Below are positions 286-17,341 of a stretch of 32,604 nt of DNA, one piece after another. Position 1 is the first letter of the stretch, and every line of letters begins with the position of its first letter. Source of the DNA: Acidobacteriota bacterium (GTDB lineage Bacteria > Acidobacteriota > Terriglobia > Terriglobales > Acidobacteriaceae); the NCBI GenBank assembly GCA_021790655.1, contig JAJYGR010000041.1:1-32604 (forward strand). Reading direction: 5' to 3'. The notes under the pieces were generated by a model. That model had not been told where the DNA came from. It worked only from the letters and a program-made list of their open reading frames with translations, and did not search any database. The position numbers and the translations under genes were made by a program.

Positions 286-597
286 ATGGCAGCGGGCAGT
301 TCACGACAGAACAAAGTCCATAAGGCGATGAACCGCCCGCTGACCATTCTGGGCGCGGAACGGCGGCTGTTCTTTGTGGCGCTGATTGCAGGCGGGGCCG
401 TCTTCTCGCTGATGCATTCGCTGCTCGGAGGCATTCTGCTGTTCATTGTTGGTGTCGTGATCGCGCGCATGGCAACAAACCACGATGTGGAAATCCTGCG
501 CGTGCTCTTCAACTCCGGCAAGTTCCGCCGCCGCTACGACCCGATGCAGTGGGATGCACCGGCAATCACCGTGAGGAAACGCCATGTTCAAGATTGA
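286..597 (+). CDS. virB3: VirB3/TrbD-like T4SS inner-membrane protein
   Basis: 103 aa between virB2 and virB4. N-terminal MNRPLTILGAERRLFFVALIAGGAVFSLMHS is typical of VirB3. Strong RBS (AAGGAGGAGG). Confidence 0.85.
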   Translation: MAAGSSRQNKVHKAMNRPLTILGAERRLFFVALIAGGAVFSLMHSLLGGILLFIVGVVIARMATNHDVEILRVLFNSGKFRRRYDPMQWDAPAITVRKRHVQD

Positions 598-3058
598 CAC
601 CATCACGAAGGACTGGAAGGAAGCCGGGGCTTTTATGGCACAGGTGAACCTGTACGGTTTCTGGGACGAGCACTGCTTCCTGACGAAGTCCGGCGACCTT
701 GGATGTGCTCTGAAGATCGGCGGCATCGATGCCGAAAGTCTCGACCATGCAGGACGGGACTACGTGGTGAATCGTCTCGAAGCGGCGCTGCGCTCACTCG
801 ACGAAAAAACTAGGCTGTATCAAATTCTCTTCCGGCACAACCGACCCACCATACCGCACGCGGAGTACACAAACCCACTGGTCCGTGCTGCAGTGGAGCA
901 ACGCGCCGATTTTCTCGCGGCGAAAGCAGACCGCCTGTACTCTGTCGAGATTTTCTGGGTCGTGATGGTCGAAGGCAGCTACGCCCGAACCGGGCTGCTG
1001 CATGCGCTGGCGCAGTTGCCACAACATCCACGCTTGTCCCTGCGGGACTTGCATGCGCTTTTCTCAGGCAGCAAGGAACGCACCTTGTTGTATGAGCAGA
1101 TCGAACGCGACCGGATGCGGTTGCAGCAGAAAGTCCAGAGTTTGAGTGGGCAGCTCAACGACCTCACCACGGTCGAGCTGCTAGGGGCGGAGAAAGCCTT
1201 CCGGCTGGTCCGGCGCTTCGTCAACTTCCGCCCCTCCAAGATTGAACAGAGCAGGCTGCATGGGATGCAGCACCTCGACTGGCAGATGTGCGACTCGGAA
1301 CTGGAAGCGCATCGCGGCCATCTGCGCCTCGATGATTTCTACGTCCGTGTTCTGACGCTAAAGGAATTGCCGAGCGAAACGCGGCCCCTGCTGTTGCACG
1401 ACCTGCTCGGAGTCCCGGCCAACTTCCATGTGGTGACGGAGTGGCATCCGGTCGATAATGCGCGGGCACGGAAGGAAATCAACAAGCGCCGCCGTCATCA
1501 CCACAACTCGAAGACCAGTTTCCTATCCAACTTGCAGGAGCAGAAGCACGCTGGACCGCGCGAGGAACTGGTCGATGACTCGAAAGAAGCAGCGGTCGCG
1601 GAACTCGGCGAAGCGTTGACCGCCCTCGGCATGGAAGGAAAGTCCTTCGGCGAATTCACGCTGACGGTGGTGGTCTACGACGAAGACCGCGCCCAGGTGG
1701 AACATGCCGTGGCGGAGTTTCAGAAACTCTTCACCCAGCACGACGGACTGTTGTACGAGGAACGCTACAACCTGCTGAATGCGTTCTTTGCGGCCATCCC
1801 CGGCAACAGACAGTTCAACCTGCGCAAACAATGGGCGCTCAATTCCAACTATGCCGACCTGTCGTTTCTGTTCAGCATCGATACCGGATCGCAGTGGAAT
1901 GCGCATCTGGAACGCGAACATCTCGCGGTCCTCGAAACCGCGCACGCGACTCCCTATTATTTCAACCTGCACGCGGGCGATGTCGCGCACACATTGCTGC
2001 TCGGCGCAACGGGTTCCGGCAAAAGCTTCCTGTTGAATTTTTTACTGGAGTCGCTCCAGAAATACAGTCCGCTGACCTTCATCTTCGATCTCGGTGGAAG
2101 CTACGAGACGCTGACCCGCGTCTTCGGCGGCACATATCTCAATGTCGGACTGAAAAGCCCCGGCTTCTCAATCAATCCATTTTCGCTCGCGCCCACGCAC
2201 GAAAACCTGAACTTTCTTTATCTCTTCACACGGGTCCTGATCGAAGCCCAGGGCAAGTATGTGCTGACGCCGGAGGAGGAAAAGGCGCTCTACGCCGCCG
2301 TCGAGCGAGTGTACCAATTGCCGCTGGAGATTCGGACGCTGACCAACTTTGCTTCGATCCTGGGGCCGCTGGGGGAGCGGCTGCATCGGTGGACACAGGC
2401 GGGTCAGTTCGGCCATTTGTTCGACAACGTCGAGGACACGCTGACCTTCTCCAGATTTCAGACCTTCAACTTCGATGGCTGGAGCGACGCGCCAGATGTT
2501 TTGGAGCCGCTGTTGTTTTACGTGTTGCACCAGGCGTCGGCGGAGATCGAAAAGCCGGATAACACCGCCACCTTCAAGTGCTTCGTGATTGATGAAGCGT
2601 GGATGTTCCTGAAGAACGCCACTATCCGCGAATGGATTGTCCGGGCCGAAAAAACGTGGCGGAAGAAGAACGCCGCGATGGTTCTCGCCACGCAGTCCGT
2701 GGTGGAACTCGCAGCGTCCGAGATGCTGCACATCGTGCACGAATCCTGCCCGACGAAAATATTCCTCGCCAACCCAAACATGGACCGCAAGCTGTACGCC
2801 GAAGTCTTCCAGTTGAACGATACCGAACTCGAGTTGTTGGAGTCGCTGGTACCCAAACGCGACCTGCTCGTGAAACAACCGGGGCACACGAAGAAACTCG
2901 TGCTCGAAGTCGATGCGTTGACGTATTGGGTCGCCACGAACAACTCGCGCGACAACCTGCGCAAGCAGGAGTATTTCGCCCGCTACGGGCCGGAGGTCGC
3001 CGCGGCGACACTCCTGCATCTGGCCCATGACTATCCCAACCCAACTGCAACCCAATGA
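584..3058 (+). CDS. virB4: VirB4/TrbE-family T4SS ATPase
   Basis: 824 aa; Walker A LLLGATGSGKSFLLN, Walker B CFVIDEAWMFL, ATQSVVEL motif. Overlaps the virB3 stop by 14 nt. Confidence 0.95.
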   Translation: MFKIDTITKDWKEAGAFMAQVNLYGFWDEHCFLTKSGDLGCALKIGGIDAESLDHAGRDYVVNRLEAALRSLDEKTRLYQILFRHNRPTIPHAEYTNPLVRAAVEQRADFLAAKADRLYSVEIFWVVMVEGSYARTGLLHALAQLPQHPRLSLRDLHALFSGSKERTLLYEQIERDRMRLQQKVQSLSGQLNDLTTVELLGAEKAFRLVRRFVNFRPSKIEQSRLHGMQHLDWQMCDSELEAHRGHLRLDDFYVRVLTLKELPSETRPLLLHDLLGVPANFHVVTEWHPVDNARARKEINKRRRHHHNSKTSFLSNLQEQKHAGPREELVDDSKEAAVAELGEALTALGMEGKSFGEFTLTVVVYDEDRAQVEHAVAEFQKLFTQHDGLLYEERYNLLNAFFAAIPGNRQFNLRKQWALNSNYADLSFLFSIDTGSQWNAHLEREHLAVLETAHATPYYFNLHAGDVAHTLLLGATGSGKSFLLNFLLESLQKYSPLTFIFDLGGSYETLTRVFGGTYLNVGLKSPGFSINPFSLAPTHENLNFLYLFTRVLIEAQGKYVLTPEEEKALYAAVERVYQLPLEIRTLTNFASILGPLGERLHRWTQAGQFGHLFDNVEDTLTFSRFQTFNFDGWSDAPDVLEPLLFYVLHQASAEIEKPDNTATFKCFVIDEAWMFLKNATIREWIVRAEKTWRKKNAAMVLATQSVVELAASEMLHIVHESCPTKIFLANPNMDRKLYAEVFQLNDTELELLESLVPKRDLLVKQPGHTKKLVLEVDALTYWVATNNSRDNLRKQEYFARYGPEVAAATLLHLAHDYPNPTATQ

Positions 3059-3066
3059 GGAGCACC

Positions 3067-3819
3067 ATGCACACAAAATCCTATTTGACCGGATTGCTGG
3101 CGTTGGCGGCCCTGGCCGCGCACGCCCAGCAGACCGCCCGCATCGTGCATTATCACGCCAACGACATCGTCCCCATCCGCGCCAAGATGCACTACACCAC
3201 GCTGATTGCGCTGCCAACGAGTGAAAAGATTCTGGAGGTCGCCACCGGCGACAAGGACTTCTGGATTCTCGATGCCGTGCAGAACTACTGCTTCCTCCAT
3301 CCGGCGAAGGCGGACATTCACTCGAACCTCAACCTGATCACCGAAAAAGGCAACGTCTATTCCTTCACACTCGATGATGTCGAAACGGCAGATCCAGATC
3401 TGAAAGTCGTGATCGAACCATCCGATCCATCGACCCTGGCCAGCGTGCGCGGCCCGGAAAAGTTCGTTCCCGCGTCGGACGTAATTGCTGCACGCATTCA
3501 GGCAAAGATCGCGGAATTGGATGCACAACAGTCCGTGGAAGCGTTCCGCTCCAGCTATCCGGTCGCGCATCTGGCCTTCGATTACAAGTACAAAAACAAA
3601 CCGCCCTTCGACGTGGAAGCCATCTATCACGATGACCATTTCACCTACATCAAGTCCTCGGCCCAGGAAAAGTTCGCCGTCTATGAACTCAAAGACGGCA
3701 AACCCGATCTTGTCAGTTTCCAGCTCAAGGACAACACCTATGTGATCGCGCAGGTCGTCGACAAGGGCTACCTCCAGATCGGCAAGAAGAAGCTCGCATT
3801 TGCACGCAAGGGAAAGTAG
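3067..3819 (+). CDS. virB9: VirB9/TrbG-family T4SS outer-membrane complex protein
   Basis: Signal peptide MHTKSYLTGLLALAALAAHAQQ; VirB9-like TLIALPTSEKILEVATGDKDFW...NLNLITEKGNVYSFTL. An alternative start at 3055 overlaps the virB4 stop (ATGA). Confidence 0.85.
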   Translation: MHTKSYLTGLLALAALAAHAQQTARIVHYHANDIVPIRAKMHYTTLIALPTSEKILEVATGDKDFWILDAVQNYCFLHPAKADIHSNLNLITEKGNVYSFTLDDVETADPDLKVVIEPSDPSTLASVRGPEKFVPASDVIAARIQAKIAELDAQQSVEAFRSSYPVAHLAFDYKYKNKPPFDVEAIYHDDHFTYIKSSAQEKFAVYELKDGKPDLVSFQLKDNTYVIAQVVDKGYLQIGKKKLAFARKGK

Positions 3820-5091
3820 GTGACGCCGATGGCGGAGGAAAAGCAGGCCCAGGAAGTAGAGACGCAAAAAGTTCCGCCGAGCGCGCAAATCCCGAACGCG
3901 CAGGCCCCGAATCCGCAATTCAGGGACCAGCGCGCGCAGCCCCCCGGCGTGGTGGCGAAGCAGAGCCAGAGCTACTTGATCGTCGGGTTGTCCGTGGTGA
4001 TTCTGCTGGCCGTGTTGTTCTCGAGGAACCATGCCAAGCCATCTGCGAAACCGCTCTCGCCTGCGTCCACTGCTCCAACGACAGAAGCCAGCCAGCGCAA
4101 TATCGAACGCTTCCAGGAAGACCTGACGGCGGAACAGCGGCAGGCAGCAGCCGATAAGAATCTACTGGGCGGACAGAATGGCACAGCCAGGGCTGCCAAT
4201 ACACAAAGACCGCTCAATAACCAGCCGCCCCACGATCCCATCGCAGATGCGGAGAAGGCACTGGCGTTCAAGTCGCGCTTCGCCTCGAATCTCGTGACAC
4301 CGAATGCCGTTCCGCCACATGACAGCGTTGCACGCAGCCCGTGGGAGCAGAATCCCGGAGTAGGGTTCGGCAACGCGCTTGTGCCAGCATCCCTCCAGTC
4401 GCAACCGATGCCAGGCAGTACGTCGAATGCCGCTCCGAATACAAAGCAGAATTCAACCACCCCCAAGCATGCGCCGGAAGTGAATCTCAACTCCGCGCAC
4501 GGCCAACCCTACGTGCTGTTCGAGGGCACCATCCTCGACACAGCATTGCTGAATAGGCTGGTCGGCGATTTTTCCGGGCCAGTGAAGGTCATGGTCACGA
4601 ACCCCATCTACAGCCAGGACCGGCAGCATGTCCTGATTCCCGAAGGCACGTTTCTTCTGGGCGATGTGCAGAAGGTCTCGGGCTTCGGCCAGCGCAGGCT
4701 GGCCGTCCGCTTCCATCGCATGCTGATGCCCGATGGTTATTCCGTCGATCTCGACCAGTTCCAAGGTCTCGATCAGGCCGGGGCCACCGGCCTCTCCGAT
4801 CAGGTGAACAACCATTATTTGCAAATCTTCGGGGCCTCGATTGCCCTCGGCGTCATCTCGGGTGCTGCGGAGGCGACCATGTATGGCAGCGGCTATAACA
4901 TCAGCGGCCCGGCCATGTATGAGCAGGGCGTGGCATCGAGTTTGTCGCAGTCGGGTGCGGATGTGCTGGATCGTTTCATCAACATCCTGCCAACGATCAC
5001 GATCCGGGAAGGCCATCGCATCAAGGTGTATCTGACCCAGGACATGCTCCTGCCGGCTTACGAAAACCACACCATGCCGGGAGATTTCTGA
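3820..5091 (+). CDS. virB10: VirB10/TrbI-family T4SS protein
   Basis: Single N-terminal TM, Pro/Gln-rich periplasmic region, C-terminal VirB10 fold signatures (LFEGTILDTALLNRLVGDFSGPVKVMVTNPIYSQDRQHVLIPEGTFLLGDVQ, RIKVYLTQDMLLP). GTG 3820 or ATG 3829 start. Confidence 0.9.
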   Translation: MTPMAEEKQAQEVETQKVPPSAQIPNAQAPNPQFRDQRAQPPGVVAKQSQSYLIVGLSVVILLAVLFSRNHAKPSAKPLSPASTAPTTEASQRNIERFQEDLTAEQRQAAADKNLLGGQNGTARAANTQRPLNNQPPHDPIADAEKALAFKSRFASNLVTPNAVPPHDSVARSPWEQNPGVGFGNALVPASLQSQPMPGSTSNAAPNTKQNSTTPKHAPEVNLNSAHGQPYVLFEGTILDTALLNRLVGDFSGPVKVMVTNPIYSQDRQHVLIPEGTFLLGDVQKVSGFGQRRLAVRFHRMLMPDGYSVDLDQFQGLDQAGATGLSDQVNNHYLQIFGASIALGVISGAAEATMYGSGYNISGPAMYEQGVASSLSQSGADVLDRFINILPTITIREGHRIKVYLTQDMLLPAYENHTMPGDF

Positions 5092-5294
5092 TGCGGATAA
5101 TTGTTGTCATTCTCTGTGCATGTCTTTTCCTGGCTGGTTGCGATACAAGCACACAGCCAACGAAACCATCGCCGCTGCATTACGCGCGAGCCATTCCCAG
5201 ACAATGCGCGTTGGGCTGCTGCCGGTGCAAGCGCCGTCATATCGCCCGCGCCGTCCCTATCAGACACCCATCGCCGAAAAGGAGAATGCCGTGA
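5091..5294 (+). CDS. small lipoprotein, candidate VirB7-like T4SS lipoprotein
   Basis: MRIIVVILCACLFLAGC lipobox. Start overlaps the virB10 stop (TGATG at 5089-5093), and its stop overlaps the virB5 GTG (GTGA at 5291-5294). Confidence 0.6.
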   Translation: MRIIVVILCACLFLAGCDTSTQPTKPSPLHYARAIPRQCALGCCRCKRRHIARAVPIRHPSPKRRMP

Positions 5295-6121
5295 AATCGA
5301 TGAGAATACTTTGTCCGATCTTTCTACTTGCCACGCTGCTCGCGCCTGCGGCGCATGCGCAGTTCGCCGTCTTCGATGCCTCGAATTTCGGGGAGGCCGT
5401 CCAGGAATTCAGCCAGCTGGAGCAGATGTACACCACGGCGGTCGAGACCCGCGACCAGATCGTCGCCGCTTACAACCTCGCCTATCAAATGTCCCAGATG
5501 CCGCAAGACCTGTCCGCGCGTTATGCCACGGACTTCACACTGTGGACGAACCTGTCCGCGCCCAACACCTATGGCAATACCTCCGCGTGGGTGAATGCGC
5601 TCGATATCGGCTCGCCTGCCCAGGCAACGCAGGCATACCGCGATGCTGTAGTCCAGGTTCAAAGTTATCCGGGCGGAAGTCTGGCATCGCAAGATGCCCC
5701 TACCCAGGCCACCATCCAGAACCAATACGCGACGTCGGAACTCGCGCAAGGTACGACCACCAGCACGCTCTCGACGCTCGGCGCCATTCGGTCGAACTCG
5801 CAAGCGCTGGCGCAGAAACTCGCCAACCTCGATGCCGACACCTATTCCACCGACCCGTCGCAGCAGAGTGAAATGGCCGTGCTGGGCAAGATCAATACGG
5901 CTACGCTCCTACAAATTCACTCGCAGCAGGACACCAACCAGATACTGGCCGCTTCGGTCCAGCAGCAACTCGTCGCCCAAAAGCAGCAGATCGATGCCCA
6001 GAACCGGGCCATCAACGAAGCCATCTATTTTCAGCAGAACTTCCCCAACACCATGCAGCAGATCACCGGCGGTGTGAGCAATTCCTTGCACGCGATCTCA
6101 CTCAGCCCGAATGGACACTGA
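5291..6121 (+). CDS. virB5: VirB5/TrbJ-like T4SS minor pilin/assembly protein
   Basis: Signal peptide MKSMRILCPIFLLATLLAPAAHAQ; coiled-coil Gln-rich body. GTG at 5291 is preceded by AGGAG. The ORF track start 5120 is too far upstream. Confidence 0.75.
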   Translation: MKSMRILCPIFLLATLLAPAAHAQFAVFDASNFGEAVQEFSQLEQMYTTAVETRDQIVAAYNLAYQMSQMPQDLSARYATDFTLWTNLSAPNTYGNTSAWVNALDIGSPAQATQAYRDAVVQVQSYPGGSLASQDAPTQATIQNQYATSELAQGTTTSTLSTLGAIRSNSQALAQKLANLDADTYSTDPSQQSEMAVLGKINTATLLQIHSQQDTNQILAASVQQQLVAQKQQIDAQNRAINEAIYFQQNFPNTMQQITGGVSNSLHAISLSPNGH

Positions 6122-6947
6122 AATGGATCCGAACCCTTTCACCTTTCTCAACCAGGCAATCGGCCAATTGCTAGCGACCAACAGTCCCGCCATCCAGGCG
6201 ATGGGCCTCAATCTCTTTCGCGGTCTCGCCGTCATCATGATCGCCTGGTTCGGCATCCAGAATGCGCTCTCGACCGCGCAGGGTTTTTACGGCAGCTTTC
6301 ACTTCGGCCAGTTCGCCAACCTGCTGCTGGCGATCTCGTTTGGCCTGGGGATGCTGACTTACTATTCTTCACCCATTCCGGGAATGGGGTACAGCTTCTG
6401 CGACCTGATCACCCAGGAATCGCTGCAGCTTTCGGGTCAGATCGAATCGAAACAGACCCAGGTCATTGCCGATGCAGTCACGCATGCCGAGGAGCAACTG
6501 GGCCAGCCTCCCGGCGAGTTCGACTTCCACGAAACGCTGACGTTTCTCGTCATCGCGATTGCGCTGGCAGCGATGCAGGCCGTGGCCTTTGCGGTGATTG
6601 CCTATGGGCTGGTGGCCAGTGCCGTCTGCGTACTGATTGGGCCGATCTTCATTCCGTTCTTCATTGTGCCGAAACTGGATTTCCTGTTCTGGGGATGGTT
6701 CAAGGCGTTTCTTGGCTTCAGTTTCTATCAGGTCATCGCCAGCGCCTTCATCTTCATTTTTGCGAAAGTCCTGCTGGCGCTGCTTGGCGTCATCGGGCCG
6801 ATCTCCATCTCGAATGCATTCACCGTAATGCCCGCGCTGATCGTCACCCTGTTTGTCTGCATCTTTGGCCTGTTCAAAATACCGGAATTGACCGGGGCAA
6901 TCCTGAGCGGGCGCACCGGAACATGGGTGAACCCAATGGGGAACTAA
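6111..6947 (+). CDS. virB6: VirB6/TrbL-like polytopic T4SS membrane protein
   Basis: 278 aa, multiple TM helices, VirB6/TrbL layout between virB5 and virB8; ATG 6123 is an alternative start. Confidence 0.8.
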   Translation: MDTEMDPNPFTFLNQAIGQLLATNSPAIQAMGLNLFRGLAVIMIAWFGIQNALSTAQGFYGSFHFGQFANLLLAISFGLGMLTYYSSPIPGMGYSFCDLITQESLQLSGQIESKQTQVIADAVTHAEEQLGQPPGEFDFHETLTFLVIAIALAAMQAVAFAVIAYGLVASAVCVLIGPIFIPFFIVPKLDFLFWGWFKAFLGFSFYQVIASAFIFIFAKVLLALLGVIGPISISNAFTVMPALIVTLFVCIFGLFKIPELTGAILSGRTGTWVNPMGN

Positions 6948-6949
6948 CT

Positions 6950-7627
6950 ATGACAGAGAATGATTTTCCAATCACGGACGCCGGTCAGAAGTATCTCGAG
7001 TTGTACGCCGAGCCTGTGGTGACCAACACCTACCTCAAAGTGGCCCTGCTGGTGCTTTCGGTCGTCGCGCTCGCTCTGCTGGCGCTCTTCTACCGCACAC
7101 AAAGCGCTGCTTTGCGCCTCAAGCCGCTCATCGTCGCGGTCTCCGATTCTGGGCATGGCCAGGTAATGCAGTATGACGACTTTGCAAAGATTCCCATCGA
7201 CCGCGTCAGCAAGTATTACCTCGCGCAATGGTCGGAGTTGTACTACGGGCGCAACCACTCGACCTTGCAGCGCGATTTTGCCGAGTCGTTGAGCTTCTTC
7301 TCGAACCAGCTCCAGAGCGCCACGATCCAACGCTTTCAGAAGGCGAAGACGCTCGAATCTTTCCTGCTCGATCCCTCGCAGCCCAACGTCGACATCGAGA
7401 TCCATTCCGTGGTGCTCGAAGATCTGCGCCAGCCGCCGTATCGCGCCGAGATTGAGTTCGACAAGATCTTCCGCTCTCCCGGCAATCTCGACGAACAACG
7501 CCGCGAACAGTGGACGGCAAATGTCGTCTACAGCTTCCGCGAGGAAGTGCCGAACTCGATGCTGCTGACCAACCCGCTCGGTCTCGTCATTACCTACTGC
7601 CGCGAAGATCAGGCGTTCGGGAGATGA
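6950..7627 (+). CDS. virB8: VirB8/TrbF-like T4SS assembly protein
   Basis: Cytoplasmic N-terminus, one TM (VALLVLSVVALALLALFY), periplasmic NTF2-like domain with DFA...VVYSFREEVPNSMLLTNPLGLVITY. ATG 6950 is internal to the 6695 ORF. Confidence 0.85.
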   Translation: MTENDFPITDAGQKYLELYAEPVVTNTYLKVALLVLSVVALALLALFYRTQSAALRLKPLIVAVSDSGHGQVMQYDDFAKIPIDRVSKYYLAQWSELYYGRNHSTLQRDFAESLSFFSNQLQSATIQRFQKAKTLESFLLDPSQPNVDIEIHSVVLEDLRQPPYRAEIEFDKIFRSPGNLDEQRREQWTANVVYSFREEVPNSMLLTNPLGLVITYCREDQAFGR

Positions 7628-8022
7628 CCATGCGAGTGAGGAAACACATCCTGCTCTACTGCGCCGATCTGGAATTGCTGTCGGCGATGGCATTCGTGCT
7701 ACGCCTGCGCAATTACGATGTCGCTGCTGTCCATGCAATCCAGGACGCGATGGACTTTCCTGCGGGCCGGGACACCACTTTTCGCTGCTGTGTGTTGATG
7801 CACGCACGGCAGGCCGATCCCGCTGGACGGCTGGTACATCTTCTCCTCGCAGGTAACGCGCATCTCCCGCTGCTGCTGGTGGACCGTGCCGGGGACCTTG
7901 CGCCCGTGCGCTATGCGGACATGGTGCTGTATGGCCGCAACACCACGATGGCGCACATCCTCTCCGCGCTTCGGCTTCTGTGTAGACAGAAGCGCGGACC
8001 GAAACCACGGAACGCGGCATGA
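7624..8022 (+). CDS. receiver-like (CheY-fold) protein, apparently lacking the phospho-acceptor Asp
   Basis: 132 aa; KHILLYCADLELLSAMAFVLRLRNYDVAAVHA...CCVLMHAR...LPLLLVDRAG...ADMVLYGRNTTMAHILSALRLL follows the alternating pattern of a receiver domain. ATGA overlap with virB8. Confidence 0.5.
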   Translation: MTMRVRKHILLYCADLELLSAMAFVLRLRNYDVAAVHAIQDAMDFPAGRDTTFRCCVLMHARQADPAGRLVHLLLAGNAHLPLLLVDRAGDLAPVRYADMVLYGRNTTMAHILSALRLLCRQKRGPKPRNAA

Positions 8023-9575
8023 AATATCTCTCCGTCTGTTCGGGCATCGAGGCCGTGACCGTCGCGTGGCAGCCACTTGGCTGGACACCCGTCGCATTTG
8101 CCGAGATCGATCCATTCTGTTGCTGGCTGCTGCGCTCGCGCTATGGCGCATCGCGTCCGCTGCACATGCCGAGTCCGCATGATGTTGACACGCGCATGGA
8201 AGCAAAGCGCCGTGGAGCGGCCATTCGCAACGTCATCGCATTGCCAACGACCGGCGACAATCGCAACCTCGGCGACTTCACAAAGATTGGAGCGGACGAT
8301 GTGGGAACAATCGACCTTCTGGCCGGAGGCACACCTTGCCAGTCTTTCTCCATCGCCGGAAAGCGAACGGGACTGGATGATGCGCGTGGCAACCTCACCC
8401 TCGAGTTTGCTCGACTTGCTGATCGACTCCGGCCCCTTTGGGTGGTGTGGGAGAACGTGCCCGGTGTGCTGTCGATTGACAACGGACGGACGTTTGGAAC
8501 CTTCCTCGGAATGCTGGTCGAACTCGGGTATGGGGTCGCATGGAGAGTCCTGGATGCTCAACATTTCGGAGTACCCCAGCGACGGCGTCGCGTCTTCGTT
8601 GTCGGACATCTTGGAGACTGGCGAGCTGCCGCAGCCGTATTACTTGACGCCGCGTGCCTGTCGGGGCATCCTCCGCCGCGCCGAGAAACGCGGCAAGGAG
8701 TTGCCCTGGGCGTTGAAGTCGGCCCTGCTGGCGGTCGCTTCACAGACACCGCACCCACCATCGACGCCGGATGCAAGGACGGCTTCGTCCGCAATCAAAT
8801 CGGAGTCGGCATCCTTGCAGGCGATGGAGAGATCTCACGATGTCTGAACGCGGGCGGCATGGGGCGCCAAGATTACGAAACAGAAACGCTGATCGCACAT
8901 TCCCTCTGTGCCGGTGGATTCGATGCCAGCGAGGATGGCACCGGACGCGGAAGCCCGCTCATCCCGATTGCCATCTGTACCGCGCACACGCAGTCGAATG
9001 GACATGGATTCTCGGACGACATTGCGCACACGTTGGAGCAGACCAACAGCCAGGCCGTGGCCTTCAACCTGCGCGGACGCGAGGGCGGAGCGATCCCCGA
9101 AGCCTCGCCAATGGCCAGCGTTCGCGCCGCATCCGGTGGCAGCAGCAACAGCTATGTCGCGTTCTCCGCGAAAGATTACGGAGCGGATGTTGGCGGCATT
9201 GCGCCAACACTGCGCGGCATGGAGCATGACGCGAGTCATGCCAACGGCGGTGGACAACTCGCCATTGCCGCTCCGTTGACTGCCTCCTATGGCAAACAGG
9301 TCGATAGCTCCGACACCAGCAATGGGCCGCCGAACGTTTTGCATTCCGGGATAGCGGTACGGCGACTGACGCCGCGCGAGTGCGAACGCCTGCAGGGATT
9401 TCCCGACGATTACACGCTGGTTGAGTATCGCGGCAGGCTGGCTGCCGACGGTCCGCGCTACCGGGCGCTCGGCAATTCGATGGCGGTCCCGGTCATGCGC
9501 TGGATCGGACAGCGCATCGCGGCGGTCCACGAAATCCTGATGCATCGGAACGACGGGCCGCCATGCCAGCAGTAA
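8019..9575 (+). CDS. dcm: DNA (cytosine-5)-methyltransferase, phage/element type
   Basis: SVCSGIEAVTVAW (motif I), GGTPCQSFSIAGKRTGL (motif IV), VVWENVPGVL (motif VI), QRRRRVFVVG (motif VIII), RRLTPRECERLQGFPDDYT and GNSMAVPVMRWIG (motifs IX-X). ATGA overlap with the upstream ORF. Confidence 0.95.
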   Translation: MKYLSVCSGIEAVTVAWQPLGWTPVAFAEIDPFCCWLLRSRYGASRPLHMPSPHDVDTRMEAKRRGAAIRNVIALPTTGDNRNLGDFTKIGADDVGTIDLLAGGTPCQSFSIAGKRTGLDDARGNLTLEFARLADRLRPLWVVWENVPGVLSIDNGRTFGTFLGMLVELGYGVAWRVLDAQHFGVPQRRRRVFVVGHLGDWRAAAAVLLDAACLSGHPPPRRETRQGVALGVEVGPAGGRFTDTAPTIDAGCKDGFVRNQIGVGILAGDGEISRCLNAGGMGRQDYETETLIAHSLCAGGFDASEDGTGRGSPLIPIAICTAHTQSNGHGFSDDIAHTLEQTNSQAVAFNLRGREGGAIPEASPMASVRAASGGSSNSYVAFSAKDYGADVGGIAPTLRGMEHDASHANGGGQLAIAAPLTASYGKQVDSSDTSNGPPNVLHSGIAVRRLTPRECERLQGFPDDYTLVEYRGRLAADGPRYRALGNSMAVPVMRWIGQRIAAVHEILMHRNDGPPCQQ

Positions 9576-10164
9576 CGAGCGGGATCGGCGGTATTCCCAT
9601 GCGGCGCATTGCGGAGTTGCTTGCCATGCCGACAACGAAAGGGAGCCGCTGCGTTCCATCGCATCTGTCGCCCGTGTCTGGCCCTGTTGCGGGGCGGGCT
9701 GCAAACGAAATGCGGTTTTGTGTGCGTGCATTTCACTCGCTGGCTGCTTGTCGCTTGGACGGCGGCGAGGCAGAAGGTTCGCCGGTTGGCGGTGGCCTGC
9801 AGTGCGTCTTGAGCAGTCGCCCCAGTTTGCGGACAGTTTCGGTACGAGCGCCATTCCTCCAGTTTTTCCCCTGCTCTCCCTCGGTCACTCGCTCGGTGCT
9901 TTTCCCGCGCCCTGCGGGAACTGCGCGGCTCTGCTTCACAGACTGCGGCGCATGGGTCTCCAGAAACGGAAAGATGGTTGCGCCGCAGCCTGTGCCCTTC
10001 GGGTTTCGGTTTCCAGAAAATCTTTTGTGCAAAGAACGCAAAAAACATTTTCCAGACCCTCCGAAAAAGCGCCGCTTGCCCTTGGGAGCGGGGCACCTCG
10101 CGTCGCTTCGCGCAAGAGTGTCCCGAGTGAAATCCGGGCAAAAACCAACATGGAGGAAATCATC

Positions 10165-10569
10165 ATGGCACTCTACGAAAACTGCATCCGCTTGAAAGGG
10201 TTCGTCGGCAAAAACGCACAGGCCCAGGCCACCGCAACCGGCAAGTCCGTCATCGTCCTCTCGCTCGCCACCAAGTCCAGCTACAAGGACAAGAAGACCG
10301 GCGCGTGGGTCGCGCGCACGGAGTGGCACCGCATCGTCTGTTTCGCCAAGCCCGCCGAGTACGCGAAGAACCTGAAGAAGGGCGACTACGTCGAGGTCGA
10401 AGGCGAGTTGCGCAGCTCCGAGTTCGATGCGGAAGTCGGCAACGGCAAGCAGAAATCCACCATCAAGCGCCGCACCTGGGAAGTCCGGGCCAGCCTCGTC
10501 AAGAAGCTGGCGCGGCCCCAGCATTCCGATTCAGATTCCGAATCCATCTCCGAGGAGGACGCCGCGTAA
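10165..10569 (+). CDS. ssb: single-stranded DNA-binding protein (copy 1)
   Basis: OB-fold SSB pattern: LKGFVGKNAQ...VIVLSLATKSSYKDKKTGAWVARTEWHRIVCFAKPAEYAKNLKKGDYVEVEGELRS; RBS GGAGG at 10152-10156. Confidence 0.9.
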   Translation: MALYENCIRLKGFVGKNAQAQATATGKSVIVLSLATKSSYKDKKTGAWVARTEWHRIVCFAKPAEYAKNLKKGDYVEVEGELRSSEFDAEVGNGKQKSTIKRRTWEVRASLVKKLARPQHSDSDSESISEEDAA

Positions 10570-10576
10570 GCGGCGT

Positions 10577-10592
10577 TCCTTCTCCGGAAGGA
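10577..10592 (+). promoter_or_regulatory. UNCG-type RNA hairpin overlapping the Shine-Dalgarno of the second ssb
   Basis: TCCTTC-TCCG-GAAGGA: 6-bp stem, C(UCCG)G tetraloop; the SD AAGGAGG (10588-10594) forms most of the 3' arm. Confidence 0.5.
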
Positions 10593-10601
10593 GGCGCAAC
10601 C

Positions 10602-10997
10602 GTGAATCTTTTCCGAAACACCGTAACCCTGCGAGGTTTCCTTGCCAAGGACGCCGAAGTTCCCACCTCGGACCATATCCGGCATGATTCCTTCGCGGTA
10701 CTGGTGCTGGGCATCGCGTCCGGCACCTGGAAGAAGCAGACCTGCGAATGGATTCCGCGCACGGAGTGGCACCGCATCATTTGTCCTGGCCCGTTCCTGT
10801 GCGGATTCACGCGCGGCATGAAGCTGGGTGAGTATATCGAGGTCACGGGCGAATTGCACCGCTCAGACTACGAGCGCGCCGTCACCGTCGCTGGCGAGCG
10901 GTTCCCGGTCACGCAGTCCACCTATGAAGTCCACGCACTGGAGATACGTCGCCTGGAAGTTCCATTCATCGGCGTGGATGAGGGTGAGGACGGCTAA
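10602..10997 (+). CDS. SSB-like protein (copy 2, divergent)
   Basis: GTG start after AAGGAGG; NTVTLRGFLAKDAE...TEWHRIICPGPFLCGFTRGMKLGEYIEVTGELHRSDY is homologous to the preceding ssb. Confidence 0.8.
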   Translation: MNLFRNTVTLRGFLAKDAEVPTSDHIRHDSFAVLVLGIASGTWKKQTCEWIPRTEWHRIICPGPFLCGFTRGMKLGEYIEVTGELHRSDYERAVTVAGERFPVTQSTYEVHALEIRRLEVPFIGVDEGEDG

Positions 10998-11016
10998 GGC
11001 AGTCCGCCCTCTTTTC

Positions 11017-11040
11017 GCGGAGAGCAGAAATCCTCTCCGC
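11017..11040 (+). terminator. hairpin downstream of ssb2, possible terminator/attenuator
   Basis: GCGGAGAG-cagaaatc-CTCTCCGC, perfect 8-bp stem followed by ATTTCTCT; no strong U-tract. Confidence 0.4.
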
Positions 11041-11088
11041 ATTTCTCTGTAGTGTGCCGCGTCATGATCGCGGCGGAAAGGAACCACG

Positions 11089-11397
11089 ATGATCGCGAAT
11101 GCCGTCTTCGTCGCCACGCTGATCTTTCTCGCGCTCGGCTTCGGGCTGATGAGCCAGATGCACTTCCTCGTACCCTGGCGCAGCCTGATCGTGCATGCGT
11201 ACTTGCAGCCGATCGCCATGTACTGCGCGCTGCTCTTTGTCAACATCCTCGGCCTGACCATCTGGATTGAACGCAAGTTCTTCCTCCGCGACACGGGCCG
11301 CAAACTGAAACACCTCGACCAGGAGATACACAGTGGGAAGAGTGAACTGTCCGGTGAAATTCTCTCCCGGTTCGGCGGAGAAGAGGAGGAACAGTAG
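11089..11397 (+). CDS. small membrane protein, unknown function
   Basis: 102 aa with two hydrophobic segments and an acidic tail; upstream GGAAAGGA. Confidence 0.65.
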   Translation: MIANAVFVATLIFLALGFGLMSQMHFLVPWRSLIVHAYLQPIAMYCALLFVNILGLTIWIERKFFLRDTGRKLKHLDQEIHSGKSELSGEILSRFGGEEEEQ

Positions 11398-11399
11398 CC

Positions 11400-11693
11400 A
11401 TGCTGAGCGAGGAGCAATACATGGAACGGACGCCCGGCCTGATTGCCGAAATTCGCAAGCTGCGCGAGGCGGCAGAAAAAGAGATGAACAAATTCACCCG
11501 CGTGGCCGACTACGACCTGTGTCGTGTCGTCGGCCAGAAGCCGAAGGCATCGCAGGTTTCTGAAGAAACGCCCCTGCCTCCTCCTGCCAATGAGCGCACG
11601 AAGAGACCGGCCGCAAAGTCCGAGACTGCCCAGGCATCCATCGAATTTTTGCCCGCTCCCGCAGTGCGGAGCGATCACGGGGAGGATGCGTGA
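11400..11693 (+). CDS. hypothetical protein (charged, element-encoded)
   Basis: 97 aa; starts immediately after the previous stop and overlaps the next gene start (GTGA). Confidence 0.55.
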   Translation: MLSEEQYMERTPGLIAEIRKLREAAEKEMNKFTRVADYDLCRVVGQKPKASQVSEETPLPPPANERTKRPAAKSETAQASIEFLPAPAVRSDHGEDA

Positions 11694-12745
11694 GACTCGA
11701 TATTCCGCAAGAACTGCCTCGCCGTCGCGAGGGGAACGACACGGCCTCCGGATCTCCGGACGAGCGTACCGTCACGCGCAAACTGCCTGACAATCCTATC
11801 CGCCATCACCTGAAATCTCTGGAAGAGAGTGCAGCGGACTCTCGCTGGAACCGTCCCCAGGCAACGCGGAAGCGTGTGGAGCCACCGCGAGAGGTCCCGC
11901 GCCCGCGCCACCACCACCCTGTGCCCTCTCCCGACCCACGGCGTCCGGCTCGTCAAGCCACGAACATCGTTGGGCTGGAACTGCGCCCCGAAGAGAAAGC
12001 GCTTCTCCGCGAGGCCGGGCGCTTTCGCGTCGTCCGCACCGCGGACCTCCGCGAAGTTTTGTACAACGGCAAAGGCCGCCCGCTGGAAAATGACCTCCGT
12101 TATCTCCGCGACAAGGGACTGGTCGAGACCGCGCACATCAATCTGCGCCGCGATGGACGGCGGCGGACCATCGAGCGCGTCGAGGTCGTCACGCTGACCA
12201 AAGAGGGCCGCAGCCTGCTGGTCCATCAGGGCGACCTGCCGTGTGACCAGAAAATCTACGCGGGTCTGGTGAAGCCGCGCGAGGTGGAACACGACTCGCA
12301 GATTTACCGCGCCTACCGAAAGGAAGCGGAAAAGATCGCCGATAAAGGTGGCACAAATCTTCGCGTGCGGCTTGATTTTGAAATCAAAGCCGACGTGCAG
12401 AAGGCGATCTACGTCGAACGCAAGGCAGGTCCCCAACGCGACATGGCAGAAATCAAGGAACAGGTCGCCAAGCAGTTCGAGCTGCCATTCGTGGATGGCG
12501 GCATTCAGATCCCCGACGCGCGCATTGAATACGATCTTCCCCGCGAGTCCAGTCACGACATCGATCAGGGATCACGCACCGGCCATGAAGATATCGAAGT
12601 GCTCACCGCCGCGTATCACGCCGGTCACCTGCGCGCCAAGGCGCAGGCAGGTTTCCGCAACTATGCCTCGGCCTCCGACCGGGCCACTCTTACCGCGAAG
12701 ATCGAGGGCGATCATCGCCTGATGGAAAACATTCTGGAGTTATAA
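11690..12745 (+). CDS. winged-helix, replication-relaxation-like protein with possible nuclease-like C-terminus
   Basis: Winged-helix pattern ALLREAGRFRVVRTADLREVLYNGKGRPLENDLRYLRDKGLVE...VVTLTKEG; C-terminus IQIPDARIEYDLP...HEDIEVLTAAYHAGHLRAKAQAGFRNY. Confidence 0.6.
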   Translation: MRLDIPQELPRRREGNDTASGSPDERTVTRKLPDNPIRHHLKSLEESAADSRWNRPQATRKRVEPPREVPRPRHHHPVPSPDPRRPARQATNIVGLELRPEEKALLREAGRFRVVRTADLREVLYNGKGRPLENDLRYLRDKGLVETAHINLRRDGRRRTIERVEVVTLTKEGRSLLVHQGDLPCDQKIYAGLVKPREVEHDSQIYRAYRKEAEKIADKGGTNLRVRLDFEIKADVQKAIYVERKAGPQRDMAEIKEQVAKQFELPFVDGGIQIPDARIEYDLPRESSHDIDQGSRTGHEDIEVLTAAYHAGHLRAKAQAGFRNYASASDRATLTAKIEGDHRLMENILEL

Positions 12746-12748
12746 AAC

Positions 12749-13795
12749 ATGAACCACGATCCGATTGCATCGCTCGAAGCCATTGGCTACGTCGAACGTG
12801 AAGCCTCCTTCCTGTACCTCGTGGCCGTGCATTCCGGCTACTTTCTCCGCCGCCAGTATCACCGCTTCACCCGGCGGGAAGGCGGCAGGATGATGGCCCG
12901 CTTCCTGAAAAAGGCATATCGCCACCGGCACATCCAGGTCATCGAGTGCGGGCAGCGGCGGCACATCTATCACCTGACGGCAAAGCCGGTGTATGCAGCT
13001 CTCGGACTGTCCGGCTCGCAGCACCGCCGCATCAAGGGAGATGCGTACATCAAGTCCCGGCTTATGGTGCTCGACTTCATTCTCGACCACCTCGGTCGAA
13101 ACGTGCTCACAGAGGAAGCGAGCAAGGTCGATTTCTTCACAACGCAGTGCGGCGTTCAGATGGAACTGCTGCCCCACAGTTATGCGGGGAGGCCGCTGTA
13201 TTTCCCGGACGGTTTTCCGATCCTGGTCTCGAACATCGGCATTCCGCGCTTCACGTTTTTCGATGAAGGCCAGGTAAGCGCGTCCCGCTTCGAGCATTTC
13301 CTTGAGCAGTACCAGCCTCTGTTTACGGCGCTCGGTGCCTTCGAGTTGATCCATCTCGCCGACACGGAAAGCCATTCCACGCGGGCCAAGGCCGCGTTCC
13401 AGCGTTTCCTTCCCGCAGACCGGTTGCGCGGCGTCACGCCGCTCACGCCTCTGGGCGTCGATCACTTTCTGAATTTTCTCCGGGTCAAGCAATTCTTTGA
13501 AGCGGAAGGCGGCGGCATTCTGGCCTCCGAGCTTGAGGTGCTGCGCGAGGGCGGGTCCCTCTACACCTCGCTCGAACATCAGGCGTTGTATGCCGCGTGG
13601 AAGACCCAGGCCACCAATTCCGCGAAAATCCGCGAGCGTTTTCTTCAAGTCCCTCTGCGCGTGAACTTCACGACAACGGTGCTTCCGTACAGCTATCCGA
13701 TCTACACCCTGCGACAGGATGGCCAATCCGAGGAAGGTAACGCGACCCACCAGCAGACCCCACAGGGGACCCCTGTAATGGAGGCTGAGGGATGA
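12749..13795 (+). CDS. winged-helix, replication-relaxation-like protein
   Basis: 348 aa; N-terminal EREASFLYLVAVHSGYFLRRQYHRFTRREGGRMMARFLKKAYRHRHIQVIECGQRRHIYHLTAKPVYAALGL resembles a winged helix. Confidence 0.6.
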   Translation: MNHDPIASLEAIGYVEREASFLYLVAVHSGYFLRRQYHRFTRREGGRMMARFLKKAYRHRHIQVIECGQRRHIYHLTAKPVYAALGLSGSQHRRIKGDAYIKSRLMVLDFILDHLGRNVLTEEASKVDFFTTQCGVQMELLPHSYAGRPLYFPDGFPILVSNIGIPRFTFFDEGQVSASRFEHFLEQYQPLFTALGAFELIHLADTESHSTRAKAAFQRFLPADRLRGVTPLTPLGVDHFLNFLRVKQFFEAEGGGILASELEVLREGGSLYTSLEHQALYAAWKTQATNSAKIRERFLQVPLRVNFTTTVLPYSYPIYTLRQDGQSEEGNATHQQTPQGTPVMEAEG

Positions 13796-14043
13796 AGATA
13801 GAGCAGTTTGGACAAAGAGCCGGGGTCACGGAGAAGTATGTGCCGGGGGCGGGAGCGACCGTATCCTTACGGATTACCACGTCGGTTTGCACCGCGCTGG
13901 TCGCTCCCGCCCCCGGCATACGAGATATCCAGAAAATATCTGCCGCAGATACCGGATCGATCCGTGACGGATACAAACGAGATCGATTGCTGATCCAGTT
14001 CGTATCTGGGAACTGTCCTCGCAGCATCGCCAAAAATCTTTAG
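13792..14043 (+). CDS. possible small ORF spanning the large inverted repeat; may not be translated
   Basis: 83 aa; ATGA overlap with the upstream stop, but no recognisable domain and much of it is palindromic DNA. Confidence 0.25.
   Translation: MKIEQFGQRAGVTEKYVPGAGATVSLRITTSVCTALVAPAPGIRDIQKISAADTGSIRDGYKRDRLLIQFVSGNCPRSIAKNL
13841..13918. repeat. perfect 20-bp inverted repeat with 38-nt spacer; candidate oriT/regulatory structure
   Basis: TGCCGGGGGCGGGAGCGACC (13841-13860) and GGTCGCTCCCGCCCCCGGCA (13899-13918) are exact reverse complements. Nested CCGTA-TCCT-TACGG at 13859-13872. Confidence 0.9.
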
Positions 14044-14065
14044 TCAGATCGAGAGGAGCACGACC

Positions 14066-14383
14066 ATGAGTAGATTCAAGATCGATCACAGCGCCAGCCG
14101 AATCCGGCAAGCGAAGATTCAAGCATCCATCGACCAATCCATCGCGGACGATATCCAGTTGATGGCCGAGTGGTCGAACAACGAACCGAAATACATCATC
14201 AATCAACTCCTGCGCTTTGCTTTGGCGCAGGAAGAAGAATTCCAAAAATACAAAGCGGGTTCCACGGCCAGTGCGATCCAATCTGCCGGGAACTCGAAAG
14301 CGGCGCCCACATCGATCAAGGCCGTATCCAAACCTGCTGCGAACCCGGACGTGACAGCATCCACTACAGCAAATCGCGCATAG
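14066..14383 (+). CDS. ribbon-helix-helix-like DNA-binding protein, candidate mobilisation accessory factor
   Basis: KIQASIDQSIADDIQLMAEWSNNEPKYIINQLLRFALAQEEEF resembles an RHH strand-helix-helix; directly upstream of virD4. Confidence 0.5.
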   Translation: MSRFKIDHSASRIRQAKIQASIDQSIADDIQLMAEWSNNEPKYIINQLLRFALAQEEEFQKYKAGSTASAIQSAGNSKAAPTSIKAVSKPAANPDVTASTTANRA

Positions 14384-14399
14384 GAGAGGCATCCGCATC

Positions 14400-16436
14400 A
14401 TGCACTTCAAAATGCAACTTCAAAACATCATCCGTCCGCTGGTCGAGTACCGCCTGGCGCTGGCTCTGGGGTTGAGCGCGGCCTGCGGCATCGTACTCCA
14501 GAGCCTGTATCCGATCCATGAAGCGGACCTCTTGCTGCATCTCATCCTGCTCGAACGTCCGCGAATATTTTACGGAGTGATCGAAAGCTACAACCTGTTC
14601 CTGTACAGCACGCCGTTCCTTGTCTTCTCCATGCTCTTCTCTCTGGTCTACGTCCATCTATATAGAGCGGATATAGAGCAGATCGCCGGGTCGCTGCCGC
14701 CGTGTCCCGATCCGTTCACCCGCCAGGATCTGTCGCTGGTCGTGGGCGAGCTGCACCGGCAGCTTGTGCCCAGGTCCAGCCCGGCCCCGCAGTGGCTCAC
14801 GATTCCCGAGCGCGGCCTCTATACCGGGACCTTCATTGTCGGGGCCACCGGCTCCGGCAAAACCCTTGGCCTGATCCTGCCGGCGATGCGGCAGTTATTT
14901 GCCTACCAGGCGAATGACCCTGAGCAAAAGCTCTCTGGCATCGTGCTCGAAGTGAAAGGCGATCTCTGCGATCAGCTCAGGGAGATTCTGACGTGGTGCG
15001 GACGCGGGCCGGACTATGTCGAAGTCTCGCTCGATGGCGACATCCGCTATAACCCGTTGAACAATTCGCTCGATCCCTATGCCCAAGCATTCAATATCGC
15101 CTCCATCATCACTTCCATCTGGGGCAAGGGCAAGGAACCGTTCTGGCAACAGTCCTACACCGACCTTGTCCGGTACGTGATTCTGTTGCACCGCATCCGC
15201 GACGGATACCTCACGATGGTCGATCTCTTCCGCACTGTCATCAGCGCCGGATGTCTGGAGGACATGCTGATCGAAGTTGGGTCACGCTTCAGCCAGACAA
15301 AATATCTCGGCATCGGAAAAGATGCTTACCGAGAACACGAACCTCTGCTCTCTTCGCTGGGATTCGTGTGGCGGCAGGATGCGGATCAGTACCTTGCCGC
15401 GTGGACGAAAGAGCTGGAACAGTTGCTGCTCCAGCAGATGCATGCCGAGTTCTTTCTCTATACGCGCAAGACCTTCGCTCCCGAGCAGCAGGACTCTTTC
15501 GGCTGGGTCCAATATTGGTATTGGGAGCATTGGAAGTTCTTTCGCTCCGAGGTCAAGACCTCGATCGTGCAGGGCATCGTCGTCTTCCTCTCGCTGTTTG
15601 CAACCGATCCGCAAGTGCGCCGCGTCTTTTGCCCACCGAAGGAACTCTACGATGGAAAACCCTGCGCCAGCGATCCGAAGGGTCGAATTTTGCCGCCTTT
15701 CGATGAATTGATCGAGTCAGGCAAAGTCGTCGGTCTGAAGTTTCCCGTGGCCTTGAATCCCGCGCTGGCGAAAACCATCGGCACCATGATGAAGGTGGAC
15801 TATCAGCGGGCCGTCATGCTGCGTATTCCCCGGATGGCTGCGGAACCGAATCGCTATTTTCGCCCCACCGTATTTATTTGCGATGAGTACCAGAACTTCG
15901 CCACCGTCGGCGGAGACAATCCCACGGGCGATGAACGCTTCCTGTCCATCTCCCGCCAACCCAAATGCATTCCCATTGTGGCCACGCAGAGCATCTCCAG
16001 TCTGACGGAAGCGTTGCCCAACGAAGGGGTCAAGACCCTATTGCAGGCATTTCGCACCAAGATCTTTCTCTCGACCGCCGATCCCGACACGGCGCGATAT
16101 GCCTCGGAGCTGTGCGGCAAGGCGGACAAGACACGCATCAGTTACACGGTTTCTGAATCCAGTTCCAACGCCAATGTCGGTTGGCTCTCCGGTCGCACCG
16201 CATCGAGCAAAGGCTCGGTCTCCGCTTCCAAGCAGTATCAAAAGCGCCTGGAGCCATTATTCGAGGAAAATGTCTTCCTCCATCTCAAAAATGCGCAGGC
16301 CGTCATTCTTGCCTACGATGGCATCACCCCCTGGTCGGCAACGTATTGCTATCTGAAGCTGGACTTCCTGCCCCTCACTATGACCTGGTTCGACCAGGAA
16401 CGGATCGGCTTCGATCCAGAAAGGATATGTGCATGA
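14400..16436 (+). CDS. virD4: VirD4/TraG-family type IV coupling protein
   Basis: 678 aa; N-terminal TMs, Walker A GTFIVGATGSGKTLGLILPAM, Walker B VFICDEYQNFATVG, C-terminal TraM-recognition-like domain. Confidence 0.92.
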   Translation: MHFKMQLQNIIRPLVEYRLALALGLSAACGIVLQSLYPIHEADLLLHLILLERPRIFYGVIESYNLFLYSTPFLVFSMLFSLVYVHLYRADIEQIAGSLPPCPDPFTRQDLSLVVGELHRQLVPRSSPAPQWLTIPERGLYTGTFIVGATGSGKTLGLILPAMRQLFAYQANDPEQKLSGIVLEVKGDLCDQLREILTWCGRGPDYVEVSLDGDIRYNPLNNSLDPYAQAFNIASIITSIWGKGKEPFWQQSYTDLVRYVILLHRIRDGYLTMVDLFRTVISAGCLEDMLIEVGSRFSQTKYLGIGKDAYREHEPLLSSLGFVWRQDADQYLAAWTKELEQLLLQQMHAEFFLYTRKTFAPEQQDSFGWVQYWYWEHWKFFRSEVKTSIVQGIVVFLSLFATDPQVRRVFCPPKELYDGKPCASDPKGRILPPFDELIESGKVVGLKFPVALNPALAKTIGTMMKVDYQRAVMLRIPRMAAEPNRYFRPTVFICDEYQNFATVGGDNPTGDERFLSISRQPKCIPIVATQSISSLTEALPNEGVKTLLQAFRTKIFLSTADPDTARYASELCGKADKTRISYTVSESSSNANVGWLSGRTASSKGSVSASKQYQKRLEPLFEENVFLHLKNAQAVILAYDGITPWSATYCYLKLDFLPLTMTWFDQERIGFDPERICA

Positions 16437-17341
16437 GTTTTGCAATCATTCTGCCGTTCCTCAAACCGATTCGGCATCTTCTCGAAGCCAAGACCGTCTC
16501 GGAAATTATGGTCAATCCAGATTCGTCGATCTGGATCGAGGAGGACGGGAAAATTAAGTTGTTCTCCGGCATCCGGTTTGACGATGGAGCATTGCAAACC
16601 GGTCTGGAAGTCATTGCCAACAAGTTTGGGAAAAAACTTGATGCCGACTCGCCCATCATGAACTTGCGCCTCCCGGATGGCAGCCGCTTGGCCGCCATGA
16701 TTCCACCTGTGGTGCATCCTCGCCCTCTACTGACCATCCGGAAGTTCACCTCGCGGAACTTCAACATTCATGACCTGATCGAGCGAAAGACACTGACAGA
16801 AGCTCAGGCGGAGATGCTGGCAAACTGCATCCGGCGTGGGGACAATCTCCTCATCTCCGGCGCAACCAACTCAGGGAAGACCACGCTCGCTAACGTGCTG
16901 GCCGGTTTCATCCCGGAAAATGATCGCATTTTGGTCCTCGAAGATGTGGCCGAACTCCATATTCGGAAGCCGCATGTCGTCTCCGCCGAGGCCCAACTCG
17001 ACACGCACAAAAGTCAGATCGGGTTCAGCGATTTACTGAAAGCCGCGCTGCGACACAGACCCGACAGAATCATCGTCGGCGAGATTCGTGGCCCGGAGGC
17101 GCGGGTCTTTCTCGACGCCCTCAATACCGGCCATCGCGGATCGCTTTCGACCATCCATGCCAACGGTGCCAATGACGCGCTGCGGCGTCTGGCGCAACTT
17201 GCCATGCGCGGTTCCAGTGGCGTCCCTCTGCGCGACGTTGAGGAGGAGTGCGGGAGATCCATTGACCTGGTCGCTCATCTGATGAATCAGGATGGGTGGC
17301 GGCGCATTGTGGAAATCCGTGCCCCTGCCGAATGCACATGA
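16433..17341 (+). CDS. virB11: VirB11/TrbB-family T4SS ATPase
   Basis: LLISGATNSGKTTLANVLAGF (Walker A), ILVLEDVAELHI (Asp box), LRHRPDRIIVGEIRGPEARVFLDALNTGHRGSLSTIHAN. ATGA overlap with virD4; the ORF track start 16181 is too early. Confidence 0.95.
   Translation: MSFAIILPFLKPIRHLLEAKTVSEIMVNPDSSIWIEEDGKIKLFSGIRFDDGALQTGLEVIANKFGKKLDADSPIMNLRLPDGSRLAAMIPPVVHPRPLLTIRKFTSRNFNIHDLIERKTLTEAQAEMLANCIRRGDNLLISGATNSGKTTLANVLAGFIPENDRILVLEDVAELHIRKPHVVSAEAQLDTHKSQIGFSDLLKAALRHRPDRIIVGEIRGPEARVFLDALNTGHRGSLSTIHANGANDALRRLAQLAMRGSSGVPLRDVEEECGRSIDLVAHLMNQDGWRRIVEIRAPAECT

Follow-up and report, generated by a model that had tools for sequence, protein, structure and literature searches.

The window, by which we mean the entire 32,604-nucleotide stretch of acidobacterial DNA that was analyzed, contains a type IV secretion cluster (584–17341) with genes for VirB4-like, CagX, TrbI, TrbL/VirB6 and VirB8 proteins, a C5-cytosine DNA methyltransferase (dcm), a single-strand-binding protein (SSB), and VirD4-like and VirB11-like proteins. 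Because dcm sits within this cluster, between VirB8 and SSB, we infer that the element that carries it is conjugative. The closest relatives of the source genome among public contigs, within the matches listed, are Acidobacteriaceae. The product of dcm matches PF00145 (Pfam, E=1.5e-55) and PHROG 116 (E=3e-87), and its frame contains PCQ, ENV, motif VIII and the C-terminal sequences ERLQGFPDDYT and GNSMAVPV, as required of a C5-methyltransferase. The gene is also intact in relatives, at 55–87% identity. Judged by its sequence, dcm is an intact C5-cytosine methyltransferase gene.

Two single-strand-binding-protein genes follow in succession 3′ of dcm (9718–10569 and 10305–10997), the second of which is divergent, with a Pfam SSB match (E=0.003) below the cut-off. 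The source genome has nine PF00145 matches, several in pieces at contig ends, and only the dcm of the window contains the nested peptide described below.

The catalytic half of dcm is overlapped by an open frame in the +1 phase. The original prediction placed this frame at 8077–8847 and singled out a peptide at 8503–8742; both translations read as it gave them and the frame is open throughout, but the start was misplaced. Position 8077 is merely the first TTG after a stop codon, and the conserved start is ATG 8299, so that the predicted gene occupies 8299–8847. The features of the locus are as follows.

8019..9575, + strand: dcm, C5-cytosine DNA methyltransferase, 518 amino acids (PF00145, PHROG 116; all motifs in a single frame)
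8289..8292, + strand: Shine-Dalgarno (SD) sequence GGAG, 6 nt 5′ of the nested start (read directly)
8299..8847, + strand: predicted nested gene in the +1 frame of dcm, 182 amino acids, 19.9 kDa (ATG 8299, TGA 8845–8847)
8299..8595, + strand: N-terminal part of the nested gene, overlapping dcm from motif IV (PCQ, 8334–8342) to motif VIII
8559..8607, + strand: dcm motif VIII (QHFGVPQRRRRVFVVG) over nested SEYPSDGVASSLSDIL, both frames constrained (column entropies)
8596..8742, + strand: conserved C-terminal domain of the nested protein, SLSDILETGELPQPYYLTPRACRGILRRAEKRGKELPWALKSALLAVAS, with predicted helices at 118–131 and 137–147 (codon entropy, codon-position pattern, pLDDT)
8743..8847, + strand: unconserved tail of the nested gene (third-position differences rise again, to 0.498; the ORFs of relatives are shorter)

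ATG 8299 is kept in 18 of 18 acidobacterial relatives, and in nearly all of them it is preceded by a GGAG- or AGGA-like sequence. In most homologues an ATG or TTG lies 67–69 codons 5′ of the position equivalent to 8503 in the window, often after a AAGGAGTGG-like sequence, and in 136 of 204 a start codon (ATG, TTG or GTG) with an SD is found at this fixed distance from the anchor. SD matches of at least 5 nt with the right spacing precede 112 of 204 nested starts, compared with 40 of 1681 control start codons in other frames, a figure that is somewhat inflated because the start was picked by the best SD among the candidates. With a conserved ATG, an SD-like sequence and SD enrichment, the nested gene has translation start signals of its own. 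At the other end, the conserved core of ~148 amino acids finishes near 8742. Most members of the family, whose proteins are about 150–180 residues, stop soon after the conserved domain, and the ORFs of several close relatives end near 8742–8760.

Selection on the two frames of dcm

Overlapping frames that are open by chance are frequent in GC-rich genes. We therefore compared the observed frames with a permutation in which each homologue's dcm protein and codon usage were held fixed while synonymous codons were shuffled. The +1 frame was open across the nested span in 257 of 279 distinct homologues, against 25.3 expected, and the +2 frame was open in none of the 279 (4.0 expected).

Third-position differences in dcm between close relatives are 0.42 ahead of the nested gene, fall within it to 0.173, 0.147 and 0.156 (the first being the value for the N-terminal part, 8299–8595) and stand at 0.498 directly after it. 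Taken per 12 codons, the values are 0.45 at 8271, 0.08 at 8307, 0.22 at 8703 and 0.49 at 8739, such that the edges of the synonymous constraint are sharp, at 8299 and about 8742, and the reduced variation is confined to the overlap. Among 284 diverse sequences, the codon-entropy ratio is ~0.97 upstream, drops from 8295, reaches 0.13 at 8667 and exceeds 0.9 by 8763.

Between 8656 and 8742, there is hardly any variation at nested codon positions 1 and 2, position 3 is hypervariable, and the dcm residues vary. Amino acid differences over this interval are 0.198 for the nested protein and 0.322 for dcm; controls show the opposite order. Because the first two nested positions hardly change while dcm residues do, we infer that selection here acts mainly on the nested protein. 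The nested-frame dNN/dNS is 0.32 for the N-terminal part, 0.55 at 8596–8655 and 0.35 at 8656–8742, in each case below 1 and below the controls (0.66–0.90), as expected for purifying selection. These selection counts were made without correction for phylogeny.

Could dcm nonetheless encode a single protein, with the openness and similarity of the +1 frame merely reflecting conservation of that protein and codon bias? Upstream of 8595, much of the nested-frame similarity does derive from conserved dcm motifs. This explanation is nevertheless hardly tenable, since it leaves an open frame in 257 of 279 homologues where fixed dcm protein and codon usage predict 25, a nearly invariant nested protein over a varying dcm protein at 8656–8742, and constraint that begins and ends at the ends of the nested gene.

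It is also very improbable that programmed frameshifting fuses the N terminus of dcm to the nested C terminus with no internal initiation. Frames can switch after motif VIII, and SD-like sites can stimulate frameshifts, yet constraint would then be expected to start at the site of the shift. Instead it runs from ATG 8299, about 100 codons ahead of the C-terminal domain, where a late shift needs none. The fixed start codon and SD of the 136 homologues, and the three phage records in which the gene call begins at the ORF's own start (see below), likewise speak against such a fusion, which we disfavor.

Synonymous-site conservation by itself cannot separate constraint on RNA from constraint on protein, and a regulatory RNA structure or a protein-binding site inside dcm could in principle account for it. 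Variation in the nested frame, however, has three-base periodicity, its replacements are conservative (K/R, F/Y, S/T, I/L/V), the frame stays intact, and indels within the nested core preserve the +1 phase. We consider an origin of the constraint at the level of DNA or RNA alone to be barely credible.

At the level of sequence comparison, these data demonstrate a second coding sequence that extends from ATG 8299 across the catalytic half of dcm to just past motif VIII, with both frames under purifying selection. We are highly confident that dcm (8019–9575) holds a translated, selected, out-of-frame nested gene, though direct evidence of translation is lacking. The proposal of true dual coding, or of a nested gene, is upheld by the selection on both frames, the conserved start with its SD, and the excess of open frames. 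Stops in homologues, or an absence of purifying selection, would have refuted it; both were looked for and neither applies. By inference, ribosomes would initiate internally on dcm mRNA and make a 15–20 kDa protein alongside the methyltransferase.

Distribution and annotation of the nested gene

Translated searches with the +1 peptide matched 151 phage records and at least 584 viral contigs, and there were matches in 528 plasmids, mostly P1-like, and at least 562 places in genomes. This conservation across phages, plasmids and genomes, far above chance, bears out the original prediction that both frames look like real protein families. The gene is carried by phages, P1-like plasmids and conjugative elements, whose hosts belong to at least six bacterial phyla. 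In the sampled loci, the peptide match lies in the same +1 phase within a C5 methyltransferase gene whose main frame is open, save for three exceptions with one stop (L273), a frameshift (L266) and an insert (L292). The last of these, an acidobacterial dcm copy (2643–5933), is interrupted near motif VIII by an in-frame insert of ~550 amino acids, which splits the nested gene, and it no longer has the PCQ motif; it is probably a broken copy. An intein is disfavored, as there is no Pfam intein or Rfam support and the PCQ motif is lost.

Since these loci were found with the nested peptide, we also collected homologues with the N- or C-terminal part of dcm. Among those covering the region, 79 of 80 and 78 of 78, respectively, carry the +1 domain (157 of 158 combined), which rules out ascertainment by the nested peptide as the explanation. 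Homologues of the peptide outside dcm loci, for which the original prediction had proposed a search, did not emerge: there is no copy of the nested gene away from a methyltransferase gene among the best 80 of at least 562 genome matches, a negative result limited by a ranking that favors copies overlapping dcm.

The signature of a nested gene, as predicted from their sequences, arises independently in the Streptococcus-phage and P1-like data sets. In Streptococcus-phage methyltransferases the nested ORF is open in 28 of 28 distinct sequences (main-frame codons 48–190 in phage IPP11), and third-position differences are 0.40 before it, 0.14–0.20 inside and 0.50 after. Among P1-like dmt genes, 18 of 18 have the ORF, and toward its 3′ end variation is lower in the nested protein than in Dmt (0.364 versus 0.609). 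In phage P1 (AF234172) it spans 66728–67201 within dmt (157 amino acids, GGAG 7 nt upstream) and is without annotation. Thus, as in the window, the C5 half of a bifunctional methyltransferase, P1 Dmt (AAQ14041.1), holds a homologous nested ORF, with the difference that dmt is known solely as a methyltransferase gene.

The C5 methyltransferase gene of Streptococcus phage SpSL1 (locus L389) also contains the nested ORF. This enzyme is active and methylates RCGRC, and one site that remains unmethylated lies in an inverted repeat, which overlaps what may be a promoter of the methyltransferase gene (PMC6755750). The unmethylated site is compatible with a regulator bound there.

A second class of +1 nested ORF, of 200–350 amino acids, occurs in a different group of C5 methyltransferases (L437–L477 and, in Paenibacillus phage Pagassa, L419, where it occupies 1685–2389 inside 1483–2553). 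Its sequence includes 'TP..D' repeats as well as a motif-IX-like 'LNPDWVECLMGFPIGWT', the latter missing from the main frame. Third-position differences are 0.43–0.49 over main-frame codons 67–175 and 0.62–0.66 outside, a constraint that is weaker, though present.

Existing annotation of the nested ORF is sporadic, and the records that include it are labeled methyltransferase. It is listed as a gene from its own start as MM1 ORF14 and P0092 gp45 and, for the second class, as Pagassa gp60. ORF14 of Streptococcus phage MM1 (CAC48080.1) and gp45 of S. thermophilus phage P0092 (ARU13047.1) are, like the window's ORF, +1 ORFs in a C5 methyltransferase gene; unlike it, they are named methyltransferases, have a shorter C terminus and lack the ILRRAEKRGK hairpin. 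We found no remark on either overlap in searchable texts. The original prediction had likened the peptide to hypothetical phage proteins. Such a family exists, as PHROG phrog_16143 (139 positions), which 86 of 95 members match, but it is labeled 'DNA methyltransferase'. Its best member is from Streptococcus phage IPP11 (E=2.6e-48); the model centers on Streptococcus, and its coverage of the window's protein is partial (E=2.6e-4). Neither a Pfam match to a PF00145 domain nor a catalytic PCQ is present in the nested protein, whose only likeness to the enzyme is a short segment (see the next section); it does not meet the methyltransferase label, which appears to have been transferred from the overlapping gene. 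Pfam and NCBIfam gave nothing credible for the nested protein, and PADLOC gave weak matches only, to methyltransferase models (MTase_II; best E=9e-4).

Out-of-frame nested, or overprinted, genes are known in phages, with lambda Rz/Rz1 as an example. Such genes have been reviewed for viruses (PMC8227390). Like them, the window's ORF would encode a complete second protein in another frame, translated from start signals of its own, and both frames are under purifying selection. The present family differs in that the host gene is a DNA methyltransferase, that it is spread over mobile elements of at least six phyla and is largely unannotated, and that its C terminus is similar to a stretch in the main frame of other members of the host gene family. 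In open-access full texts, the only papers that could be searched, no account was found of any gene nested within that of a DNA methyltransferase.

Proposed origin by a change of frame

Where might the nested C terminus have come from? The methyltransferase gene of Staphylococcus phage SpP lacks a nested ORF, and its main frame reads 'LVDVLEDEVDEKFYLPKEKIEKLVMNL' after motif VIII. An HMM of Firmicutes nested C termini (CSLSDILEENVPEEFFLSAEK...) scores 30.6 bits on the SpP protein and 36.8 bits, the best score, on a relative of it. The 'L.DILEDEVDEKFYLS' segment of such phage C5 methyltransferases resembles the nested C terminus over ~26 residues and lies, as the nested domain does, downstream of motif VIII; unlike in the window, it is encoded by the methyltransferase frame, in genes that lack the nested ORF. 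None of 312 methyltransferases that bear the nested gene has the post-motif-VIII segment in the main frame. Methyltransferases with a recognizable main-frame segment have short +1 ORFs, of 26–82 codons, and in two relatives without the segment the +1 ORFs reach 146 and 156 codons. Homology to the main-frame segment was found only in some phage methyltransferases: 29 other PF00145 loci of relatives and the methyltransferases in the PDB do not show it, and neither the segment nor the nested ORF occurs in typical methyltransferases of the same genomes.

Because the two arrangements are mutually exclusive in our sample, we favor an origin by frame change. The comparison gives moderate support to the idea that the nested C terminus descends from, or was exchanged with, the main-frame segment after motif VIII, although the homology covers only ~26 residues in a small set of proteins, and that segment was itself part of the patterns used to gather the relatives. 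The suggestion in the original prediction that the overlap is a fossil of a frameshift is thus supported in part, by the HMM match and the absence of both arrangements together in any of the 312 nested-gene-bearing methyltransferases; the direction of the change is unproven. A change of frame would have relocated a piece of the methyltransferase into a separate overlapping gene. The same segment in the main or the nested frame, in complementary placement, may represent a traceable case of overlapping-gene birth.

Possible functions and significance of the nested protein

As no copy was found apart from a methyltransferase gene, the function of the nested protein cannot be read from its context. 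In AlphaFold2 models only the C-terminal helical hairpin is confident (helix pLDDT about 95); elsewhere prediction is poor, with mean pLDDT of 68.6 and 58.0 for the two models. The C-terminal part has a net positive charge (median +5). Searches of the PDB by sequence and with Foldseek by fold returned nothing.

Given that the gene is real, several possibilities can be considered. Our leading guess, which is tentative and falls short of even confidence, is that the protein serves the methyltransferase as a partner or regulator, a function that is unproven. It may act with its methyltransferase through the basic C-terminal helical hairpin, and together they would aid survival of mobile DNA against host restriction; both inferences are weak. 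Another possibility, rather unlikely in our estimation, is that the nested gene is real yet independent of the methyltransferase, encoding an anti-defense or regulatory protein that shares the locus. The overlap alone enforces co-occurrence, so the association with dcm is no proof of joint function, and phages, P1-like plasmids and conjugative elements all face host defense. However, the nested C terminus resembles a methyltransferase segment with a complementary distribution, which hints at a link to the enzyme, and there is no match to a PADLOC or other defense family. An independent role specifically in anti-defense is a minority expectation to much the same degree; a DNA- or RNA-binding regulator of the element is less probable again, and we give little weight to some other activity.

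A broader proposal, speculative and in our view doubtful, builds on a role with the methyltransferase: an ancient methyltransferase segment, moved by a change of frame into an overlapping gene, would serve in trans as a dedicated subunit, and such "frame-partitioned" methyltransferases would be common in phages and mobile elements. If this is true, the Paenibacillus-phage class, with its motif-IX-like sequence in the +1 frame, would be a second frame-partitioned class.

If it is translated, the nested gene is an unusually widespread conserved out-of-frame gene of bacteria and phages, one that has been missed because gene callers suppress overlapping ORFs and that has been mislabeled where it was called. 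Since phage P1 and many Streptococcus phages carry the gene, its function should be testable in laboratory systems. Any earlier knockout of these phage dcm or dmt genes would have eliminated the nested gene as well, so that phenotypes ascribed to methylation may need to be re-read.
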